NCBI GenBank assembly: GCA_016787575.1
Contig: JAEUUO010000009.1
Coordinates: forward strand, 62,001 to 126,000
Source of the DNA: Saprospiraceae bacterium
GTDB taxonomy: Bacteria > Bacteroidota > Bacteroidia > Chitinophagales > Saprospiraceae
Reading direction: 5' to 3'
Length of the DNA stretch: 64,000 bases
Shown here: in pieces, positions 52,337 through 62,492 of the stretch
Layout of the letters: each line of letters opens with the position of its first letter
Numbering within the stretch: position 1 is the stretch's first letter
The notes under the pieces: generated by a model
What the model was told of the DNA's origin: nothing
Seen by the model: only the letters and a program-made list of their open reading frames with translations
Database searches by the model: none
Made by a program: the position numbers and the translations under genes

Positions 52337-52384
52337 ATATAACAAAAGTTATATGGTTTGCTTTTTATTGTAGATCTACATTTG
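52337..52384 (+). promoter_or_regulatory. Palindrome-type promoter A
   Basis: The palindrome ATATAAC-AAAA-GTTATAT (52337-52354) lies upstream of a TTTG (52357-52360), a TTGC-TTTT stretch and a TACATTTG -7 box (52377-52384). The distance from the last A of GTTATA to the end of the -7 box is 31 nt, as in the promoters at 56203 and 57290. The gap between -33 and -7 is about 16 nt, shorter than normal, which suggests an activated promoter. The ATG of the 52403 gene is 18 nt after the -7 box. Confidence 0.75.
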
Positions 52385-52402
52385 TAAGATTAAATTTATA
52401 AT

Positions 52403-53236
52403 ATGAAAAATATTCTAGTGATTCTATTTATTTTATTTTTTGGCCATGCCTTACTTTATTGTCAAAGTGATATTATTATTACAATTGATAATTCAAATCA
52501 AGAATTAAAAGTTGGTAAAAAGAAATTTCGGGTTGGAAAATTTATAAAAATTTCAATAAATAACTATGTTGCAGATGAAAATACTTATACCATTGATTAT
52601 GAAGGGGTAGATTATATAAATGATGAAATGGTTAAGAAATTTAGTAGTTATACTAATTCTACTATAAATTTAACCTCTAGTTCAAATACATACAATTACC
52701 TACCGATCCAAGTTGAAAATAAGGATTTTTCAATTTTAAGAGTGAAGCGTTTTAAGAAGAATGAGACAACTCCATCAGAAGAGAGGACCTATAAATTTAA
52801 AAATTACGGATCCATTAAATTTGATGTAAGTAGTGGATTTTTCCTAACTAAAAATTTCGATGAAAAATATTCATTATATTCACTTGAAAATGGTTCAGGA
52901 AAAAAGAAAATAGTGCGGGATGATAATGGAAAAATCAAATTAGGAATTGGAATTTTAGCCCATTTACATTCCAGAACAAAATACATGACAAATTTAGGAT
53001 TTTGCGCAGGTTTTGAAATAAATAATGATGCTAAAATAGGATATTTAGCGGGAGGGTCTCTATTATTTGGTTCCGACCGTAAATTTGTTTTTAGTAGCGG
53101 ATTAGCGTTGAGTAAAATTAAAAAAATATCCAATTTGTATAAAGAAGGACAGGAAGTTGATATGGCAGTAAATGAAATACCTTTAAAAGATGTTTGGAAA
53201 GGATCATTATTTGGAAGTTTTACTTATAATTTTTAA
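52403..53236 (+). CDS. Secreted, outer-membrane-like protein of unknown family
   Basis: A signal peptide (LVILFILFFGHALLYCQ) precedes about 260 residues. The N-terminal half (IIITIDNSNQELKVGKKKFR) looks like a soluble beta-domain. The C-terminal half (FDVSSGFFLTKNFDEKYSLY, LGIGILAHLHSRTKYMTNLG, KIGYLAGGSLLFGSDRKFVF, ending GSLFGSFTYNF) has the alternating strands and terminal Phe of a small outer-membrane barrel. I do not know the family. It is the first gene behind promoter A and is followed 10 nt later by the first LCPPKC-tail gene. Confidence 0.7.
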   Translation: MKNILVILFILFFGHALLYCQSDIIITIDNSNQELKVGKKKFRVGKFIKISINNYVADENTYTIDYEGVDYINDEMVKKFSSYTNSTINLTSSSNTYNYLPIQVENKDFSILRVKRFKKNETTPSEERTYKFKNYGSIKFDVSSGFFLTKNFDEKYSLYSLENGSGKKKIVRDDNGKIKLGIGILAHLHSRTKYMTNLGFCAGFEINNDAKIGYLAGGSLLFGSDRKFVFSSGLALSKIKKISNLYKEGQEVDMAVNEIPLKDVWKGSLFGSFTYNF

Positions 53237-53246
53237 AATAAATAAA

Positions 53247-53834
53247 ATGCTATTTTTAATTTCTGTTTTAATTCTAACCATTATTCTCTTAGTCCTAATT
53301 ATTCTAATTCAAAGAAGTAAATTAAGTAAAATAGAAGGACAATCGTTCTCTTTAATGAAAAGTGTTAAAAATCAAGAAAACCCTGAAGAAAAGTTTGATT
53401 TTAGGGCGGCATTTGATGGCAATTCTGGATTAATCAGCATTCCATACAATATAGCTAAATTGATGGTTCAAAAATATGTGAACGGAGATAATTATTTACC
53501 AAGGTCTGTTTATTTTTATGGCAACAATTTTGAAGAATTGAAGAACTACTTACGTGATGATGCAATTAAAGGGATAAAAGTATATTTTGGAAGATATTAT
53601 AAAGATGACTCAACTTCTGGTCGCTCTGTATATGATTATCTTAGGAAACTTTATAGTGCAACTGAAGCTGATAGATTGCTATCAATGGCTGCTTATCATG
53701 TTACAGCAATACTTGCAGTTACAAATGAAAATGGAGAAATAGATAAAAATAAACTTATAAATTTAGGAGGATTATGTCCACCAAAATGTGTACCTGAAAG
53801 TTATGAAGATAATGATCCACTTTATCACGATTAA
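53247..53834 (+). CDS. Membrane-anchored protein with C-terminal LCPPKC motif (copy 1)
   Basis: I start at the ATG at 53247, 10 nt after the previous stop. The 195-residue protein has one N-terminal membrane helix (LISVLILTIILLVLIILI), then a soluble domain with ISIPYNIAKLMVQKYVNGD, PRSVYFYGNNFEELKNYL, KGIKVYFGRYYKDDST and AILAVTNENGEI. It ends with INLGGLCPPKCVPESYED. It is paralogous to 54200-54769. Small Bacteroidota proteins with this G-x-LCPPxC ending are familiar to me but have no known function. A terminator follows at 54088. Confidence 0.75.
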   Translation: MLFLISVLILTIILLVLIILIQRSKLSKIEGQSFSLMKSVKNQENPEEKFDFRAAFDGNSGLISIPYNIAKLMVQKYVNGDNYLPRSVYFYGNNFEELKNYLRDDAIKGIKVYFGRYYKDDSTSGRSVYDYLRKLYSATEADRLLSMAAYHVTAILAVTNENGEIDKNKLINLGGLCPPKCVPESYEDNDPLYHD

Positions 53835-54087
53835 ATAATTTTACAACCTCTAATCAGGATATTAAATGTAGAATTTGAATTTAAATTGGATTTTGTAAAT
53901 TATAGTTTGTCTTAAATTTGGATCTTTAAAATAAAGCAGATCAATCATAGAACAAATAATTGATAAGTTTGAATCAATTAAAAAGATCTGGAATCACTTG
54001 TTCACATTATAAAAATAATGAATGGAGTAAATATTAAGTGTAATTTTTAAATGGTATTGATAATTGATATGAAACTACAATAAAGCA
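53835..54087. other. Gene-free AT-rich stretch between the LCPPKC paralogues
   Basis: There is no coding frame of quality and no copy of the palindrome promoter. It leads into the terminator at 54088. The promoter of the 54200 unit must lie between 54088 and 54199, but I could not identify convincing boxes. Confidence 0.4.
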
Positions 54088-54120
54088 ATGTCCGATCAAA
54101 GTAAACTCGGGATATTTTTT
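54088..54120 (+). terminator. Probable terminator between the two LCPPKC genes
   Basis: ATGTCCGA pairs with TCGGGATAT (one bulged G, one G-U pair) and is followed by T6 at 54115-54120. It suggests that the promoter A unit (52403, 53247) ends here and that the 54200 gene belongs to another transcript. Confidence 0.5.
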
Positions 54121-54199
54121 GGTATGTGTTTTATATTTCAAGCTAATTCTGCAATTAGAAATGTATAATCTAATTAAATATTAATTAATCTTAAAATAT

Positions 54200-54769
54200 A
54201 TGAAAAAATTGAATATTATTTTTGTAATTGCAATAGCAATATTAACTATAGTGATAATTATTTTATTGCAAAAATTAAATGAATATGAGAAAAAGTATGT
54301 TGCACCTATGGACAACACTATTGTTAAATTTGATACAAGTTTTACTGGAAAGAACTTTCTGTCAATTATTAAATTGTCAATGGCAAAAAAATTGGTAAAG
54401 AGGTATAATGATGACAATCCTGGTATTCCAAGGTCAGTTTTTTTTCAAGGCGATGATTTAACAAAATTTAGAAATTATATTAACGCTTCAGATGTATTTG
54501 GATTAAGAGTATATTTAGGTAGGTATTATAATAATGATTCTGACGGAGATGATATAATAAAAGATTATATTAAGGATTTATTTAATAATGCTGATGAACG
54601 TGATAAATATCTTAAGAACTACGAAAAAACAATTACTACAGTTATTTTAGCAACAACTGATATGAACGGAAATCCGATAACGGATAAGTTAATCAATTTA
54701 GGTGGTCTTTGCCCACCAAAATGTAAACCAGATGGTTATAATCCTGAAAATGATGTATTGTATAAATAA
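54200..54769 (+). CDS. Membrane-anchored protein with C-terminal LCPPKC motif (copy 2)
   Basis: The 189-residue paralogue of the 53247 protein has one N-terminal membrane helix (IIFVIAIAILTIVIIILL), then FLSIIKLSMAKKLVKRYND, PRSVFFQGDDLTKFRNYI, FGLRVYLGRYYNNDSDGD and TTVILATTDMNG. It ends with INLGGLCPPKCKPDGYNP. The order of motifs is the same in both copies, including the RYY block and the Cys pair. The soluble domain should lie outside the cytoplasm. It precedes the 7TM-like gene by 22 nt, so it is probably in the kinase operon. Confidence 0.75.
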   Translation: MKKLNIIFVIAIAILTIVIIILLQKLNEYEKKYVAPMDNTIVKFDTSFTGKNFLSIIKLSMAKKLVKRYNDDNPGIPRSVFFQGDDLTKFRNYINASDVFGLRVYLGRYYNNDSDGDDIIKDYIKDLFNNADERDKYLKNYEKTITTVILATTDMNGNPITDKLINLGGLCPPKCKPDGYNPENDVLYK

Positions 54770-54791
54770 AGTGATATTTCATTTATAAACA

Positions 54792-55433
54792 GTGAAAATA
54801 ATATTAACCTATAAATTGATTTTAATTATTTCATTTATATTTAGTTTATTATTAAAAAAAAATTGCAATAGCTCCATAAAATATTTTGAGTTATTTCTTG
54901 GCATTTCTCTATTTTTAGATGCTTTTTTAGGAAGTCTGTTTATATATTTTGGACTTCAAAATGCTTTGATTTACAATATTTTAATTTTAATCCAAGTACC
55001 CTTTTTTTTATATTTGTTTTCCAGTTACTTTAAGGGTCACAGTAATTATATTTTATTTAAGAGAATAATATGGGGAGTTGTAATTTTCTCAATTATAAAC
55101 TTCCTTTTTATTCAGGGTCCCACACATGTTAATAATTATAGTTATTTGCTCGGCATGAGTGTATTGTGCATATTGATTGTAAAGTACTATTATAGTTTAC
55201 TTCTAAGTGAAGTGCCGGTTTCTTTATTTAGCTTACCCTTGTTTTGGCTTTCTATAGGTATTTTATTGTTTTTTACTGCAAGTTTTCCAATATTGGCTTA
55301 TTTAAATATAATTATTGATTCTAATTCAATGCTCACTGAACCTTTATATGATTTAGTTGGGATTGGAAATATTTTTCTTAGTTTAAGTTATCTAATGGTA
55401 GTATTATGTCCCTTGATGATCCCAAAGTCATAA
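54792..55433 (+). CDS. Polytopic membrane protein (6-7 helices) upstream of the kinase
   Basis: The 213-residue protein starts at a GTG (54792); no ATG lies early in the frame. It is almost all hydrophobic, with about seven helices (LILIISFIFSLLL, LFLGISLFLDAFLGSLFIYF, IIWGVVIFSIINFLFIQG, LGMSVLCILIVKYYYSLLL, LPLFWLSIGILLFFTASFP and a last one near 185-210). It overlaps the kinase start by 28 nt, so it is translationally coupled. A natural guess is a sensor or input partner for the kinase, which itself has only one helix (inference). Confidence 0.7.
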   Translation: MKIILTYKLILIISFIFSLLLKKNCNSSIKYFELFLGISLFLDAFLGSLFIYFGLQNALIYNILILIQVPFFLYLFSSYFKGHSNYILFKRIIWGVVIFSIINFLFIQGPTHVNNYSYLLGMSVLCILIVKYYYSLLLSEVPVSLFSLPLFWLSIGILLFFTASFPILAYLNIIIDSNSMLTEPLYDLVGIGNIFLSLSYLMVVLCPLMIPKS

Positions 55434-56212
55434 GACTCATTATTCTGACTGCATTTTTAATGCCCGTTTTATTATCGGGTTTATTAATATGGTTTTTGGT
55501 TTTCTACCAAAAAAAGAAATTGGCTCAGCAACTTGAAAAGAAGGATAGTCTATTACGCGAACAACAACTCATCATCGAAAAACAAGAATCCATTCAGCAT
55601 GAGCGAAACCGGATCGCAGCGGAGATGCATGACGATTTGGGTTCTGGTTTAACAACTATCCGGTATTTAAGTGACCGGGCTTTGCAGAAAGCAAGCTCTG
55701 AAGAAGAGCGGGTTCAAATTGGACTGATTGCATCCCAAAGCAATGCCCTCATTCGAAATATGTCTGAGATTATTTGGGCACTCAATGTTCGTTTTGATAC
55801 TTTGGATAGTTTATTGGCTTATTTAAGAAGGTATGCAGCAGAATTTTTAGATGAACATCACATATCGTTTAGCTGGAATCAAAATGAATTGTTAGAAAAT
55901 TTTCAGTTGAGTGGGGAGGTTCGCAGGAACATTCATCTTACGGTTAAGGAGGCATTAAATAATATAGTAAAGCATTCTGGTGCAAGTTCGGTTCTGATTC
56001 ATTATAAAACTGAAGGAGATACTGCTTTATTAAAAATACAGGATAATGGAAAGGGATTTATTCCGGATACCATATCCTCAGATGGAAATGGGCTTTACAA
56101 TATGAAAAACCGGATGAAGTCTATTCAAGGAAACATTTCAATTCTGCAAAACCATCCTGGCACTGAGATCGTGCTGCAATTTCCGATTAATCCGAAAACC
56201 CCTATAACTTAA
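55406..56212 (+). CDS. NarX/DegS-type sensor histidine kinase
   Basis: The 268-residue protein has one membrane helix (LIILTAFLMPVLLSGLLIWF), a short coiled coil and a HisKA_3 domain with the phosphorylated His75 in RNRIAAEMHDDLGSGLTTI. An HATPase domain follows (HLTVKEALNNIVKHSGASSV with the N box, IQDNGKGFIPD with the G1 box, GLYNMKNRMKSI). It has no periplasmic sensor loop, so input probably comes from a partner. Its stop codon lies inside the palindrome of promoter B. The cognate regulator is almost surely the 56623 protein. Confidence 0.92.
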   Translation: MSLDDPKVIRLIILTAFLMPVLLSGLLIWFLVFYQKKKLAQQLEKKDSLLREQQLIIEKQESIQHERNRIAAEMHDDLGSGLTTIRYLSDRALQKASSEEERVQIGLIASQSNALIRNMSEIIWALNVRFDTLDSLLAYLRRYAAEFLDEHHISFSWNQNELLENFQLSGEVRRNIHLTVKEALNNIVKHSGASSVLIHYKTEGDTALLKIQDNGKGFIPDTISSDGNGLYNMKNRMKSIQGNISILQNHPGTEIVLQFPINPKTPIT

Positions 56213-56249
56213 GTTATATTTTCTTGCTTTTAGGTCTATCCGATCTTTG
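56203..56249 (+). promoter_or_regulatory. Palindrome-type promoter B
   Basis: TATAAC-TTAA-GTTATA (56203-56218) is a perfect 16-nt palindrome that overlaps the kinase stop. TTGCTTTTA starts at 56224, and a GATCTTTG -7-like box lies at 56242-56249. GTTATA to the end of the -7 box is again 31 nt. The ATG of the 56264 gene is 14 nt later. The promoter drives the 56264 gene and very likely the response regulator. Confidence 0.75.
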
Positions 56250-56263
56250 TAAGAAAATAGTTT

Positions 56264-56581
56264 ATGAAACTTATCACCATTTATTTTGAAAGGAATATTA
56301 CAATCGAAATTGAGTTGTATTTTTTAGTAGTGGAACGCATACGGATTAACAATGAACTTGTAAGTTCAAAATTTTCTATTCTTGGACGCGTTCATAATTT
56401 TCATCATGAGGGCCATAATTATAAAGTAGTATTGACAGCCGGCGCATTTGGTTGGTGGTTGGATCTTTACAAAGATGGTTCAGCTCTTATAGAATCTGCT
56501 AAACATGGATGTTTGATCTTATTTTGTATAGGAGTAGGTTTCTTGTTCCTGTTGGATTTATTGCATAAATACATGAATTAG
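56264..56581 (+). CDS. Small membrane protein of unknown function
   Basis: The 105-residue product begins with a beta-strand region (LITIYFERNITIEIELYFLV, SILGRVHNFHHEGHNYKVVL) and ends with one membrane helix (HGCLILFCIGVGFLFLLDLL). I do not recognise it. The gene is directly behind promoter B and 41 nt upstream of the response regulator. Confidence 0.65.
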   Translation: MKLITIYFERNITIEIELYFLVVERIRINNELVSSKFSILGRVHNFHHEGHNYKVVLTAGAFGWWLDLYKDGSALIESAKHGCLILFCIGVGFLFLLDLLHKYMN

Positions 56582-56622
56582 TTAATTTTTATTATACTTG
56601 TACTGAACTTGCTTAGAAATTT

Positions 56623-57249
56623 ATGAAAATAGCAATCCTTGAAGACTTGAAAGATGTGGCCTTGATGTTGCAAGAGCTCTTTAAGGATCAGGAAGATATG
56701 AGTTGTACGCAGGTTTATCATACTGCGGAAGACGCCATGCAGTTTTTAAAGCAACACCCTGCGGATGTTTTAATTGTTGATATTGGGTTGCCCAGGGCTT
56801 CTGGTATTGATGCAATTAATTATCTTATTAAATACTGCCCGGCCATGCAGTTTTGCATGTTTACTGTTTATGAAGATGATGAAAAAATCTTTAACTCACT
56901 TCAAGCCGGGGCGAAAGGATATATACTGAAAGGATCTGATCCGAAGAAAATTATTGAAGCTGTGCGCGAATTGCATCAGGGTGGTTCCCCTATGAGTCCT
57001 AGTATTGCCCGCCGAATATTGGATGTTTTTCAAAAAATGAATTTAAATCCTTCCCCATCTAAATTACCGCTTACCTCAAGAGAATTGGAATTATTGGATT
57101 TGCTTGCAAAGGGATTGTTGTATAAAGAAATTGCCGATCAATTGGGAATAACAACCGGCACCGTTAAACAGCACATCCATAAAATATACGACAAACTGCA
57201 AGTGACAAATCGCACAGAAGCAATTAATTTATACCGATTCGGTAAGTAG
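56623..57249 (+). CDS. NarL/LuxR-family response regulator
   Basis: The 208-residue protein has a receiver domain with Asp53 in DVLIVDIGLPRASG as phosphoacceptor and Lys102 in AKGYILKGSDP, and a LuxR helix-turn-helix (LTSRELELLDLLAKGLLYKE, IADQLGITTGTVKQHIHKIY). It lies downstream of the kinase and between promoters B and C. The TATAAC-N4-GTTATA palindromes fit a dimeric NarL-type regulator. Promoter B would give autoregulation. Confidence 0.93.
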   Translation: MKIAILEDLKDVALMLQELFKDQEDMSCTQVYHTAEDAMQFLKQHPADVLIVDIGLPRASGIDAINYLIKYCPAMQFCMFTVYEDDEKIFNSLQAGAKGYILKGSDPKKIIEAVRELHQGGSPMSPSIARRILDVFQKMNLNPSPSKLPLTSRELELLDLLAKGLLYKEIADQLGITTGTVKQHIHKIYDKLQVTNRTEAINLYRFGK

Positions 57250-57289
57250 TTAATTCATTTTACATTTTATTTGTATTAAATCCATTTGG

Positions 57290-57336
57290 TATAACAAAGG
57301 TTATATTTTATTGCCTTTAAGCACGAGATACTTTTG
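57290..57336 (+). promoter_or_regulatory. Palindrome-type promoter C
   Basis: TATAAC-AAAG-GTTATA (57290-57305) is followed by TTGCCTTTA from 57311 and a TACTTTTG -7 box (57329-57336). GTTATA to the end of the -7 box is 31 nt, the same as in A and B. A TTG in the -7 box is also the first codon of a longer frame, which shows that the ATG at 57370 is the true start of the next gene. The leader is then about 25-30 nt. Confidence 0.75.
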
Positions 57337-57369: not shown

Positions 57370-60300
57370 ATGAAAACAATTTTATCCGTATTTATTTGTT
57401 TTGGATTTTTTTATTCCAAACTCTTTTCGCAGGTTGATTGTGAATCTACTTGTCCGGTTCCTTTTGTAAATTGGGATGCTGTTCAATGTGAGCATTATGA
57501 ACAATTTAGTCCGGGACAGGTATTAATCACGAACGATTGGAAGACTTTTCCAAGTAGTAGCAATCCGCCGTATTATCCTATACCTGCAACTATTCAATTG
57601 GGACATGTAGGTCCGAGTTGGTTATATTATGCCGATTTCACTTGCAATAGCAGTTCAAAGCCGGTGGATAATAATTATTATTTTCGGATTCAACCCAAGA
57701 ATTATCGTTTTAGCACTTCTATGTTTTTCTTTAATGGAAATTCAGGATACTTTTCCATGTTAAATTCAAATTTAGCGCGAGTCGTTAATTTTTATTTTAA
57801 TGGGACCGGTTCTGTATCTGTTTCCAATGCAAACAATACATACATTGGCAGTTTCACATATCCCCAGGGAGAATGGTTTGATTTGAATTTATTTTATCAT
57901 GCTAATGAAGGACGAATTGAAGTATTTAGAAATGATTACAAAGTTTTTGAAGTTAAAAATATTTCTAGCAGTGCTGCAGGATTTCCTTCTGTTGCAAATT
58001 TTTTTACTCACAAACCGGGAGAAGCTTTCTTTTTAGGAGGTTCTTGTCTGGTAATTAGTAATGGAATCTTAGTTACTTGTTCACAGGATTATGTACCGCA
58101 ATGTTTGAATGGAACGAATGAGGAAGTTGGCTCAAATGGTTGTTACGCTGGGCTAGCTGGATACCTAAGCAGCGAAATTCATCCATGCGAAGTGACCAGT
58201 AATCCTTGTGATGATTGTGATGAATGCTTTACGTATAGATTTGATTGTGGAGACCCTAGAACTATTTATTTAACGAGCAGTTATTGCCATGAGGATGTAC
58301 CGGTATTCTCAAAGTCAGCTAAGCAACAAGCAGAAGAATTTGAATGGGAATTTAAGAATAGTTCAAATACTATTATTCAGCCTGAATATTTGAATGGATC
58401 ATCTTCCAACTCAATTAATCCAATTTGCAGGTTTCCTACTCCAGGAAATTACACCATATGTTTTAGAGTATATAAATTTAATGGAGCTGGAAGATATAAA
58501 TTTTATGAGTGTTGTTATGTGGTTAAAGTTGCTGCACCTTGTACGAAGCCACCTAGTTTGTTTGTCAGTGCTTCCAATCCAAATGCAAATTCAGAAGTCA
58601 ATTTTACTACTACGGGTTCAGATATTGAAACTTTTTCGTGGCGTATTGATGATCAGGCAGCCTATTTAGGAGGCGTATCGGCAACAGGCAGTACATTTCG
58701 ATGCGGAATTCCTGCAGGGAAGGAGTGTATTACTGTATGCTTAACAGTTGGTAATGGATGTGGAATGCTTTCCAAATGTTTGAAGGTGTGCAGACCAAAT
58801 TCGGGTTGTGGAACCAAGCCAGCCCCCCATCCACCGATTGTTTATACAGTAAATCAAAACAATGAATTGAGTTTTCAAAATGTTCCAGTAATGGACAGTT
58901 ATCAATGGACTTTGCCTGGTGGATGCACTTTTACAGGAGGCACGAATGCAAATTCTAGATCACCTATATGTAAATTACCAGATCCCAATTGCAGTTATGT
59001 AATTTGTTTAAAAATGAATATTGGTTTTTGTTATACCTATTGTTATTGCTTCACAATAAAACCACAGTTTTCTGGTCAAGTTACTTTTGATCCGGAAGAA
59101 ATGAGTTGTGCCGGAAATGGACAAGAAGTAGTTGTACCCGTTCGCATTAAAAATTTTTCGAGTATGACTTCCGTAGATATTACAGCACTATTAAGTCCAA
59201 CAACAGTTGCAGATTTTATCAGCGCTACAGCAGGGCCAAACATTAATGCAAATGCATTTGCATATCAAATTTTATCATCATCAAAAATTAAGATTGCCTG
59301 GGCTGGAGTCTCAAGTGCTCCAACAACCTTAATAGATAATGACATATTTTGTTATATAAGAGTTAAATTAAAAGGAGCAGCAAATTCATCAGCAACCATT
59401 TCATTTGATCCATCAAGTTATATAGTAAAACAAGATCGTGTAAGCATTACACCAAGTTTTAAAAATGGTAGTGTTTGTGTAAACGGTTCATTCACCATTT
59501 GCGGGAAAATTAGTACGGAGGAAAACAAACCAGTTAAAGATGTTTCAGTTGAATTAATTGGGCAGAGTACCCAAACTGTTAAAACAGATGCTTCAGGTAA
59601 TTATTGTTTTACAAATGTACCAGCTGGAACATTTACCATCAGGCCAAAAAAATTGTCTAATCCTGGCAATGGAGTAGAAATTGCAGATATTGCAGATATC
59701 CAAGGCCATATTTTAGGAAGTTTTATTTTGAATTCACCCTTTAAAATGATAGCTGCCGATGTTGACAATAATAAATCAATTAACACCACTGATATAGGTC
59801 GCATCATTCCTGTGTATTTTAACAAAAACCAGGCATTTGCTGCTGTTGAAAGTTGGCGGTTTATACCAAAATCTTACAATTTTCCAAATGATAAAAATCC
59901 ATTTCAATCCACATTTCCGGAAAGTCGCAGTATTCAAATCAGTAAAAATGAAAGTGGAATAGATTTTACGGGTATTAAAATGGGAGATGTTGATTTAGAT
60001 AGTGATCCACAAAAAATTGTAAGTGGTCCGGAACTGCCTTTAATTACAGAAAGATCCCTAAAACAACAGCCGACACTGGATCTAAAAATAAATAATTCTC
60101 AGGTTATGCCAGGTAGAAAAATAGTTGTGCCTGTGTATGCCAAAGGATTTAAAGGAGTAATTTCTTATGGATTTTCTTTAAGCTGGAACGCTACTAAGTT
60201 GCAATATTCTAAATTAATTTCATTTAACCCGAAATTAAACATGAATACATCAAATTTCAATTTAATAAATGCTGATAAAGGTAAATTGGGTGTTTCGTGG

Positions 60301-60765
60301 TATATTTTAAATGCTGCAGGTATTAGCTTAAATGATAAGGACACTTTATTTTCAATTGAATTTAATGCGATTGGGCAGGATGGCGATTCTACACAAGTAA
60401 GTTTTACTGATCTTCCAATAGCTATGGGATTTTCTAATAATCAAGAAAGTTTTAAACTTAATGTAATGAATGGAACGATTAAAATCCGGACGGTATTAAT
60501 TGGTGTTCATACAGATCAACTTCCTGAAAAATTTAATTTATTTCCAAATCCAGCCAGCAATATAATCCATTTAGATATGGAGGATGGAAATTTAAGTGAT
60601 GCATCCGTAGTGATTGTTTCAAGTGATGGAAAAATTTATCCTGGAAAGCTTGAAATCTATCAGGGACATGGAGTTATGGATATTAGTTTTATTCCTAACG
60701 GTATTTATAATTTGAGAATTGTCTACCAAAATCGGAATTACCGAATCCCATTTTGTAAGTTTTAA
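57370..60765 (+). CDS. Large T9SS protein with cohesin-like and dockerin-like modules
   Basis: Start at the ATG at 57370; the earlier TTG lies in promoter C. The 1131-residue protein has a signal peptide (LSVFICFGFFYSKLFSQ), a laminin-G-like N-terminal region (about 50-220) and Cys-rich PKD-like beta domains (about 230-560). A cohesin-like domain is at about 568-707 (GQEVVVPVRIKNFSSMTSVD). A carboxypeptidase-regulatory-like domain is at about 708-775 (KPVKDVSVELIGQ, YCFTNVPAGTFTI), a dockerin-like calcium loop at about 797-812 (ADVDNNKSINTTDIGR), and a second cohesin-like domain at about 903-1042. The tail is a T9SS sorting domain (FNLFPNPASNIIHLD). It may assemble with other modules on the surface. 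Confidence 0.85.
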   Translation: MKTILSVFICFGFFYSKLFSQVDCESTCPVPFVNWDAVQCEHYEQFSPGQVLITNDWKTFPSSSNPPYYPIPATIQLGHVGPSWLYYADFTCNSSSKPVDNNYYFRIQPKNYRFSTSMFFFNGNSGYFSMLNSNLARVVNFYFNGTGSVSVSNANNTYIGSFTYPQGEWFDLNLFYHANEGRIEVFRNDYKVFEVKNISSSAAGFPSVANFFTHKPGEAFFLGGSCLVISNGILVTCSQDYVPQCLNGTNEEVGSNGCYAGLAGYLSSEIHPCEVTSNPCDDCDECFTYRFDCGDPRTIYLTSSYCHEDVPVFSKSAKQQAEEFEWEFKNSSNTIIQPEYLNGSSSNSINPICRFPTPGNYTICFRVYKFNGAGRYKFYECCYVVKVAAPCTKPPSLFVSASNPNANSEVNFTTTGSDIETFSWRIDDQAAYLGGVSATGSTFRCGIPAGKECITVCLTVGNGCGMLSKCLKVCRPNSGCGTKPAPHPPIVYTVNQNNELSFQNVPVMDSYQWTLPGGCTFTGGTNANSRSPICKLPDPNCSYVICLKMNIGFCYTYCYCFTIKPQFSGQVTFDPEEMSCAGNGQEVVVPVRIKNFSSMTSVDITALLSPTTVADFISATAGPNINANAFAYQILSSSKIKIAWAGVSSAPTTLIDNDIFCYIRVKLKGAANSSATISFDPSSYIVKQDRVSITPSFKNGSVCVNGSFTICGKISTEENKPVKDVSVELIGQSTQTVKTDASGNYCFTNVPAGTFTIRPKKLSNPGNGVEIADIADIQGHILGSFILNSPFKMIAADVDNNKSINTTDIGRIIPVYFNKNQAFAAVESWRFIPKSYNFPNDKNPFQSTFPESRSIQISKNESGIDFTGIKMGDVDLDSDPQKIVSGPELPLITERSLKQQPTLDLKINNSQVMPGRKIVVPVYAKGFKGVISYGFSLSWNATKLQYSKLISFNPKLNMNTSNFNLINADKGKLGVSWYILNAAGISLNDKDTLFSIEFNAIGQDGDSTQVSFTDLPIAMGFSNNQESFKLNVMNGTIKIRTVLIGVHTDQLPEKFNLFPNPASNIIHLDMEDGNLSDASVVIVSSDGKIYPGKLEIYQGHGVMDISFIPNGIYNLRIVYQNRNYRIPFCKF

Positions 60766-61779: not shown

Positions 61780-62492
61780 TGAACGTAGGCTTTAAGTTTA
61801 TTTTTTTTATTTAATGGAATCAAGTTTGAATTTTCAATTTGATGATAGTAATTTCTAGCCTCAGATATTTTGTTTTCCATTAATAGGATTATACATAAAT
61901 TAAAGATAGCCTCTGTTTTATAAGGATCAGAAGATATTTCAGTCATGTGAATTAAAATTTCCTTAGCATTTTCAGAAAGACCTGATTGCAAGTAAAGGTG
62001 TGAGAGGTATCGCATGGCGATAATGTCTTTTGGATGGGATACTAGGTAACTTTTAAAATAAGCTTCACTTGACTTCAATTGATTATTATCAAAGAAATAT
62101 ATAGCAGTATCCAACGACGTTTTAATTTCCACTTCATTACGGAGGGATACTGATCCTGGTTTTACATATAAACTGGCATAAACTTCTTCTGGATTCAATT
62201 CCTTCGTCTGATCCTTATAAAAAAGCAGATAAATTCCACCAATACCTACAATAACAATCGCTGCGATTCTTACAAATAATAATAAAGTGTTATCAGGTTT
62301 TTTAAGCGCTTGTAGTTGTTGGCGCGTTTCTTGTTCAATAAGATTTGCAGCCAAAGTCTTAGCTGTTTTATATTCAGAAACAGCTTGAGCTAATTCCTGA
62401 CTTCTTTTAATTTCCTGCTCAAATAACTTGGCCTCCTGCGGATCCAATTTACCGTCCAGAAAATCCTCTATCTTATTTATAAGATCATTCAT
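61776..62492 (-). CDS. TPR-containing membrane protein, likely anti-sigma factor
   Basis: The 238-residue protein has an N-terminal helical segment typical of anti-sigma factors (MNDLINKIEDFLDGKLDPQE, SQELAQAVSEYKTAKTLAAN). A single membrane helix follows (LLLFVRIAAIVIVGIGGIYL), then a periplasmic tail with TPR-like helices (LKSSEAYFKSYLVSHPKDII, AMRYLSHLYLQSGLSENAKE, YKTEAIFNLCIILLMENKIS). It overlaps the ECF sigma gene by 8 nt. The pair is the classic ECF sigma/anti-sigma arrangement in which the tail senses a signal. Confidence 0.8.
   Translation of the reverse strand: MNDLINKIEDFLDGKLDPQEAKLFEQEIKRSQELAQAVSEYKTAKTLAANLIEQETRQQLQALKKPDNTLLLFVRIAAIVIVGIGGIYLLFYKDQTKELNPEEVYASLYVKPGSVSLRNEVEIKTSLDTAIYFFDNNQLKSSEAYFKSYLVSHPKDIIAMRYLSHLYLQSGLSENAKEILIHMTEISSDPYKTEAIFNLCIILLMENKISEARNYYHQIENSNLIPLNKKNKLKAYVH

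Follow-up and report, generated by a model that had tools for sequence, protein, structure and literature searches.

We analysed a window of 64,000 nucleotides (nt) from a Saprospiraceae bacterium (assembly GCA_016787575.1, contig JAEUUO010000009.1, forward-strand positions 62,001 to 126,000), in which a palindrome, TATAACNNNNGTTATA (TATAAC-N4-GTTATA), occurs three times without mismatch around the genes of a histidine kinase and of a NarL-type response regulator. Genes are named here by their first position in the window, the regulator being 56623 and the kinase 55406. The three palindromes, the promoter elements that follow them and the genes of the locus are listed in Table 1; the palindromes are treated below as the putative operators of regulator 56623.

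Table 1. Palindromes, promoter elements and genes of the locus, in window coordinates
Feature	Position	Strand	Basis or remark
Putative operator 1, TATAACAAAAGTTATA	52338..52353	+	exact match, confined to this locus within the genome
Promoter 1, -33 position, TGG, abutting operator 1	52354..52356	+	position inferred from clade and sister-regulator sites
-7 box TACATTTG	52377..52384	+	ends 31 nt after operator 1
277-aa protein, looks exported, no family; first gene of unit 1	52403..53236	+	36% ortholog in G002 carries site
LCPPKC protein 1	53247..53834	+	41% to LCPPKC protein 2
LCPPKC protein 2	54200..54769	+	23% relatives in G006 and G003
Hydrophobic protein, overlaps kinase start; possible sensor partner	54792..55433	+	homologs beside short kinases
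Short histidine kinase, HisKA_3 (PF07730) + HATPase_c (PF02518)	55406..56212	+	domain matches
Putative operator 2, TATAACTTAAGTTATA	56203..56218	+	exact match; overlaps last codons of kinase gene
Promoter 2, -33 position, TTT, abutting operator 2	56219..56221	+	position inferred as for promoter 1
-7 box GATCTTTG	56242..56249	+	ends 31 nt after operator 2
Small protein, 105 aa; opens the unit behind operator 2	56264..56581	+	reading frame
NarL-type response regulator, recognition helix GTVKQHIHKIY	56623..57249	+	Response_reg + GerE; alignment, tree
Putative operator 3, TATAACAAAGGTTATA	57290..57305	+	exact match
Promoter 3, -33 position, TTT, abutting operator 3	57306..57308	+	position inferred as for promoter 1
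-7 box TACTTTTG	57329..57336	+	ends 31 nt after operator 3
Giant type IX-secreted protein, 1131 aa, cohesin-like domain; proposed operator 3 target	57370..60765	+	Cohesin + Por_Secre_tail

Three exact palindromes confined to one locus

The initial annotation had described one identical palindrome at three promoters with a rigid spacing, and we recovered exactly this: all three sites are exact, and the final G of the -7 box, within its TTTG end, stands 31 nt past the palindrome in every case. Two of the boxes match TAnnTTTG in full (TACATTTG and TACTTTTG) and the remaining one, GATCTTTG, differs by one change. The genes behind the sites are 52403, 56264 to 56623, and 57370, respectively. Since the flanks of the three palindromes are unrelated to each other, they are not copies of one another.

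Many copies across the genome had been named beforehand as the outcome that would speak against a local regulon. The scan of the whole assembly (3,565,243 bases, 41 contigs) returned only the three local copies, all inside 5 kb, and no fourth exact one. Nine copies with one mismatch were found in the same genome, none of them with an xAnnTTTG box at 31 nt; lacking this box and being mostly intragenic, they were rejected as further targets.

Chance was evaluated with a first-order Markov model built on the window. It predicts 0.007 exact palindromes per 64 kb and 0.37 per genome, gives p ~2e-11 for three exact copies in 5 kb, and predicts a palindrome with TTTG at exactly 31 nt, in either orientation, about 0.008 times per genome. 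The bare count of three is unremarkable because a reversed control pattern likewise had three matches in this genome. The departure from chance lies in the clustering and the spacing, not in the raw count.

The regulator and its recognition helix

Regulator 56623 consists of a receiver domain (PF00072, E 8.5e-19) and a C-terminal LuxR/GerE helix-turn-helix (PF00196, E 3.5e-17). In an alignment of 17 orthologs, the residues D8, D53, T81 and K103, which include the phospho-acceptor Asp, were invariant, and the nearest solved structures by sequence were VraR, DesR and NarL. The protein has the features of the NarL/FixJ type, namely a receiver with phospho-acceptor Asp, a GerE helix-turn-helix and, next door, a HisKA_3 kinase as its putative partner.

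A tree of 36 regulators placed the orthologs that bear a site in one supported group, nearly all of them with the helix GTVKQHIHxIY. The exceptions within this group were the second copies in genomes G003 and G006, which have the helix GTVKQSIH and no site at their loci. Paralogs in the same genomes carry other helices, such as ETVRSHIK and NTIRCHIY.

Conservation in the genus and in the family

The genus sample comprised nine genomes, G000 being that of the window. Orthologs of the regulator with 67-100% identity were present in five of them (G000, G002, G003, G004 and G006); in the other four the best regulator matches, among the matches listed, reached at most 44% identity. The full pattern (palindrome + N24 + AnnTTTG) occurred perfectly 3, 3, 2, 3 and 2 times in the five ortholog-bearing genomes and not once in the four others. 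When the spacing was left free, TTTG stood at 31 nt in 14 of the 15 exact palindromes of the former, versus none of the three in the latter. The full pattern with one mismatch was matched once in the nine genomes, and as such matches are nearly nonexistent, the signal is almost all-or-none. This single match, in G003 (L139), is one of the 14 just counted; it is intragenic and may be due to chance.

The sites were also kept at genes distant from the regulator. In G002 a site precedes the ortholog of 52403 (36% identity) on a contig that differs from the regulator's (L157), and in G004 (L156) a site precedes the ortholog of the giant protein (46%), away from the regulator contig. Targets that retain their site at a distance from the regulator argue strongly for a regulon in trans. 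The position of operator 3 upstream of the giant-protein ortholog was kept both in this G004 locus and in G002 (L033), where window-like sites stand at the giant ortholog (45%) as well as at the regulator. In G006, with pieces of the same arrangement in G003, a first site lies before a unit encoding an LCPPKC protein, the hydrophobic protein, the kinase and the regulator, and a second site lies after the regulator (L036, L035 and L159). The 23% relatives of the LCPPKC proteins in G006 and G003 are located behind a site and ahead of the hydrophobic protein and the kinase.

Two further TATAAC promoters of G004 stand before a caspase-domain/TPR protein (L155:9936-12527) and before a unit with a pYEATS-domain protein (L154:9964-10707). 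Several regulator orthologs (L141, L147 and L035) lie at contig ends, where the following gene is often missing, perhaps owing to repetitive giant genes.

The family sample comprised 120 Saprospiraceae genomes, in which the regulator, called at E 1e-45 or better, was present in 14. Exact full sites were found in 6 of these 14, versus 3 of the 106 remaining genomes (Fisher p 6e-5). Sites were located in or beside regulator loci in G120 (two loci), G109, G062, G071, G094 and G058. The kinase-regulator junction, where operator 2 lies in the window, contains a site in G002, G073, G115 and G058 too; the palindrome there is exact in G073 and G115, with TTTG at 29 nt in G115. Type IX-secreted proteins recur among the downstream genes of the relatives. 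One shared function for all targets was rejected, these genes being diverse (fatty-acid desaturase, tyrosinase, caspase-TPR and pYEATS proteins).

The same geometry beside sister regulators of Bacteroidota

Sister regulators were collected in two sets: 80 loci obtained by a regulator-family search in named genomes, 54 of them counted as Bacteroidota by title, and 89 more loci across the class, selected by protein similarity. The scan counted perfect palindromes only, and a minority of the 179 regulator genes show one. For any perfect 6-N4-6 palindrome, the first scan gave 10 at 31 nt from the TTTG end versus about 1.6 per other spacing, and the 89 additional loci alone, scanned over the whole locus, gave 5 each at 30 and 31 nt versus 1.1. 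Within 330 nt before and 430 nt after the 179 genes (175 loci), we counted 16 at 31 nt and 6 at 30 nt, versus a mean of 0.6 per other spacing. Over whole loci, the numbers were 17 (31 nt) and 8 (30 nt) versus 2.3 at up to 450 nt from the genes, and 14 and 12 versus 11.0 beyond this distance; there is therefore no peak away from regulator genes. TTG directly followed the palindrome in 12 of the 16 sister sites at 31 nt.

The arms varied at these loci. A metagenome-assembled Bacteroidetes genome (L221) has TACAAC-N4-GTTGTA on either side of the regulator gene, each time at 31 nt, and Dawidia soli (L218) has TATAAC-N4-GTTCTA ahead of its regulator gene. Arms paired with recognition helices as TATAAC with GTVKQHIH, TACTAC with ETVRTHIR (three genomes, one with two sites), TACAAC with ETVRTHVH, and TTACAC with DTVKKHVG (two Chryseobacterium species); TACGTA, TACGGC, TACCAC, TCCCTA and others were also observed. 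Across the full set of 27 pairs, arm and helix distances were correlated (Mantel r 0.45, p 5e-5). Once each distinct arm was entered once, the correlation was weak (r 0.17, p 0.09), and a simple arm-helix code was rejected for this reason.

A spacing of exactly 31 nt as an absolute rule was likewise rejected, because 30 nt was found in the TACTAC group and at two places of the window's own genome (contigs C41 and C11 of G000). On C41, a divergent pair of the TCACCC-N4-GGGTGA type (L311:3132 and L311:3170) and, on C11, TCAGGG-N4-CCCTGA (L310:3935) each have a -7 box at 30 nt and another LuxR-type gene no more than about 2 kb away. Most other LuxR-type genes of this genome gave no clear site on the scan. 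At L412:8350 and L405:4741, lone palindromes have a TTTG box at 30-31 nt in both directions, which would suit a single operator shared by a divergent promoter pair.

We consider it likely that the NarL-type relatives of Bacteroidota share one architecture, in which a 6-N4-6 palindrome abuts the -33 element with its dyad 38-39 nt ahead of the last base of the -7 box, the arms of each subfamily being set by the recognition helix and a copy usually standing next to the gene that encodes the regulator. The conserved distance provides a search rule for which no motif has to be known in advance: beside a regulator gene, one looks for a palindrome located 30-31 nt ahead of where a TAnnTTTG box ends, and the genome is then scanned with its arms. 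This rule already separates more than 10 arm sequences, with a first partial correspondence between arm and helix. Bacteroidota genomes contain many NarL-type two-component systems, and if the architecture holds phylum-wide, the operators, hence the regulons, of very many uncharacterised systems would become readable from sequence.

Site anatomy and promoter geometry

The anatomy of the site was examined in 26 exact sites of the clade, in which the arms and the TTTG are fixed by selection. The non-selected columns that stood out were the centre, nnAR (an A followed by a weaker A/G), and a TT straight after the palindrome; position 2 of the -7 box was A in 24 of the 26 sites, which is in part imposed by the search. 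The predicted -33 position, 20 nt before the 8-nt box, coincides with the three bases abutting the palindrome and reads TT in 18 and TTG in 7 of the 26 sites.

These observations modify the earlier picture of the promoters. The proposal of a short gap between -33 and -7 elements was not supported: promoter spacing appears ordinary, since the predicted -33 position falls on the TT(G) next to the palindrome, at a distance of 20 nt from the -7 box. The TTGCyTTT block, previously described as conserved, can be read at each of the three window sites, in the first with a 1-nt shift, but TTGC was found in only 3 of the 26 clade sites, all of them the window's own. As a -33 element TTGCyTTT was rejected, being without conservation outside the window. 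Of the features whose conservation in relatives had been put forward as a check, the arms and the spacing were kept with the regulator and this flank was not.

The dyad centre lies 38.5 nt ahead of the last base of the -7 box. Taking the position of this box in Flavobacterium psychrophilum, where it was mapped at -12 to -5 (PMC9723704), the dyad is predicted at about -43.5, in agreement with the roughly 45 nt before the start site first suggested. The putative operator is thus placed in the class II position, defined by a centre at -40 to -45 and by abutting or overlapping the -35/-33 element. A fixed helical position relative to the core promoter is visible as the spacing peak at 31 and 30 nt.

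Proposed regulon and alternative explanations

The sites and their spacing, their conservation with the regulator and its targets, and the same geometry beside sister regulators, all observed in the sequences, suggest that the palindromes are very probably operators of regulator 56623, which would activate three units by the class II mechanism. The earlier reading, in which this regulator recognises the sites, controls both flanking units and autoregulates, gains support from the co-occurrence of ortholog and site, the targets in trans, the site before the regulator gene and the shared helix. Binding, phosphorylation dependence, activation rather than repression, and the start sites are predictions from sequence comparison.

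Under the proposed mechanism, regulator 56623 would be phosphorylated, probably by the neighbouring kinase 55406, and its dimer would occupy TATAAC-N4-GTTATA with its centre about 43 nt ahead of the transcription start. As the operator abuts a weak -33, the dimer could contact sigma region 4 there and bring the holoenzyme of the primary sigma factor to the xAnnTTTG box. Three units would be turned on in this way: the 52403 unit leading towards the kinase gene, 56264 together with gene 56623 itself, and the gene of the giant surface protein exported by type IX secretion. Positive autoregulation of the sensor and regulator units could produce a switch-like response with a surface-protein output. 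Small regulons are predicted by the search rule given above, consisting here of the kinase/LCPPKC unit, the regulator itself and the giant secreted surface protein.

Four observations weigh against this interpretation. The -33 triplets of the window (TGG, TTT and TTT) match TTG poorly. In G004, no site lies close to the regulator on its contig. The spacing rule is looser in family genomes picked by the regulator alone: of the 25 exact palindromes there, TTTG at 31 nt accompanies only about 8, the others having 30 nt or variant boxes. Finally, G056 and G017 contain sites and gave no regulator match at E 1e-30.

Among the alternatives, repression by regulator 56623 survives best, although we regard it as unlikely. 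The dimer, on or over the -33, would then block RNA polymerase until its release. The site does abut the -33, and position alone cannot separate activation from repression; moreover, autoregulated genes are often repressed. However, the strict 30-31 nt across different arms, together with the weak -33 of the clade, points to sigma contact at a fixed face, whereas a repressor would tolerate more positions.

It is quite improbable that the sites belong to an unlinked transcription factor of which regulator 56623 is merely one target. G056 and G017, with their sites and no close regulator, would be explained in this way, but the presence of the site and that of the regulator ortholog agree in 9/9 genus genomes, regulator loci of many genera contain the site or have it next to them, and GTVKQHIH accompanies these arms, the corresponding place at sister regulators being taken by different ones.

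That the palindromes are not operators at all, being chance AT-rich repeats, RNA hairpins, terminators or mobile repeats, would fit the AT-rich sequence and a count of three equal to that of the reversed control, but we regard this explanation as refuted by the comparative data, given the unrelated flanks (they are not copies), clustering and spacing far above chance, a pattern conserved across genera, and a short stem without a T-run after it.

Other genes of the locus

The genes from 52403 to 56212 probably form a single transcript. Its two LCPPKC paralogs both have NLGGLCPPKC near the C terminus, NLGGLCPPxC being invariant, and both begin with a hydrophobic stretch; LCPPKC protein 1 had no Pfam or NCBIfam match at cut-off. 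No recognised sensor domain was found in kinase 55406, which may work with the hydrophobic protein 54792, homologs of which adjoin short kinases in G003, G004, G006, G010, G073 and G120. Two sensor layouts were observed for one regulator (54792-56212, L033, L146 and L147), either the hydrophobic protein with a short kinase or a single kinase of about 1000 aa with propeller and Y_Y_Y domains.

Comparison with known systems

ComA of Bacillus subtilis is likewise a NarL/FixJ-type response regulator. Its operator consists of inverted hexamers separated by 4 nt, the spacer length that performed best in binding tests (PMC4797271), and the same 6-N4-6 inverted-repeat form characterises the putative operators found here and at sister loci. 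In contrast, the ComA arms are TTGCGG, a direct repeat is also used and the site lies upstream of the polymerase site, whereas here one palindrome abuts the -33. The promoters resemble the primary-sigma promoter of Bacteroidota (TTG, about 20 nt, TAnnTTTG) in their -7 box and, at sister loci, also in a TTG about 20 nt upstream, but the -33 of the window is degenerate.

In the literature searched, we found neither a description of a regulator palindrome immediately abutting the -33 nor an operator sequence for a member of this subfamily; the text of the palindrome retrieved unrelated papers only. No Bacteroidota NarL-type operator of this architecture was found either, in a search that covered few subscription papers, so that priority is uncertain.

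Within the phylum, the FimS/FimR two-component system of Porphyromonas gingivalis has a LuxR-type regulator, FimR. This system acts directly on the mfa1 promoter as an activator and is therefore similar in controlling a surface-protein promoter (PMC1974823). It differs in its fimbrial target gene, and no operator sequence is given in that paper.

PorX/PorY-SigP of P. gingivalis ties two-component control to type IX secretion, acting on secretion-machine genes via an extracytoplasmic function (ECF) sigma factor or at porT (PMC4800418, PMC8050853). The proposed targets here are instead a cargo protein and the system's own genes, with promoters of the TAnnTTTG type. As a local NarL-type two-component regulon, the locus is of a kind already known; less expected is the architecture shared across the phylum.

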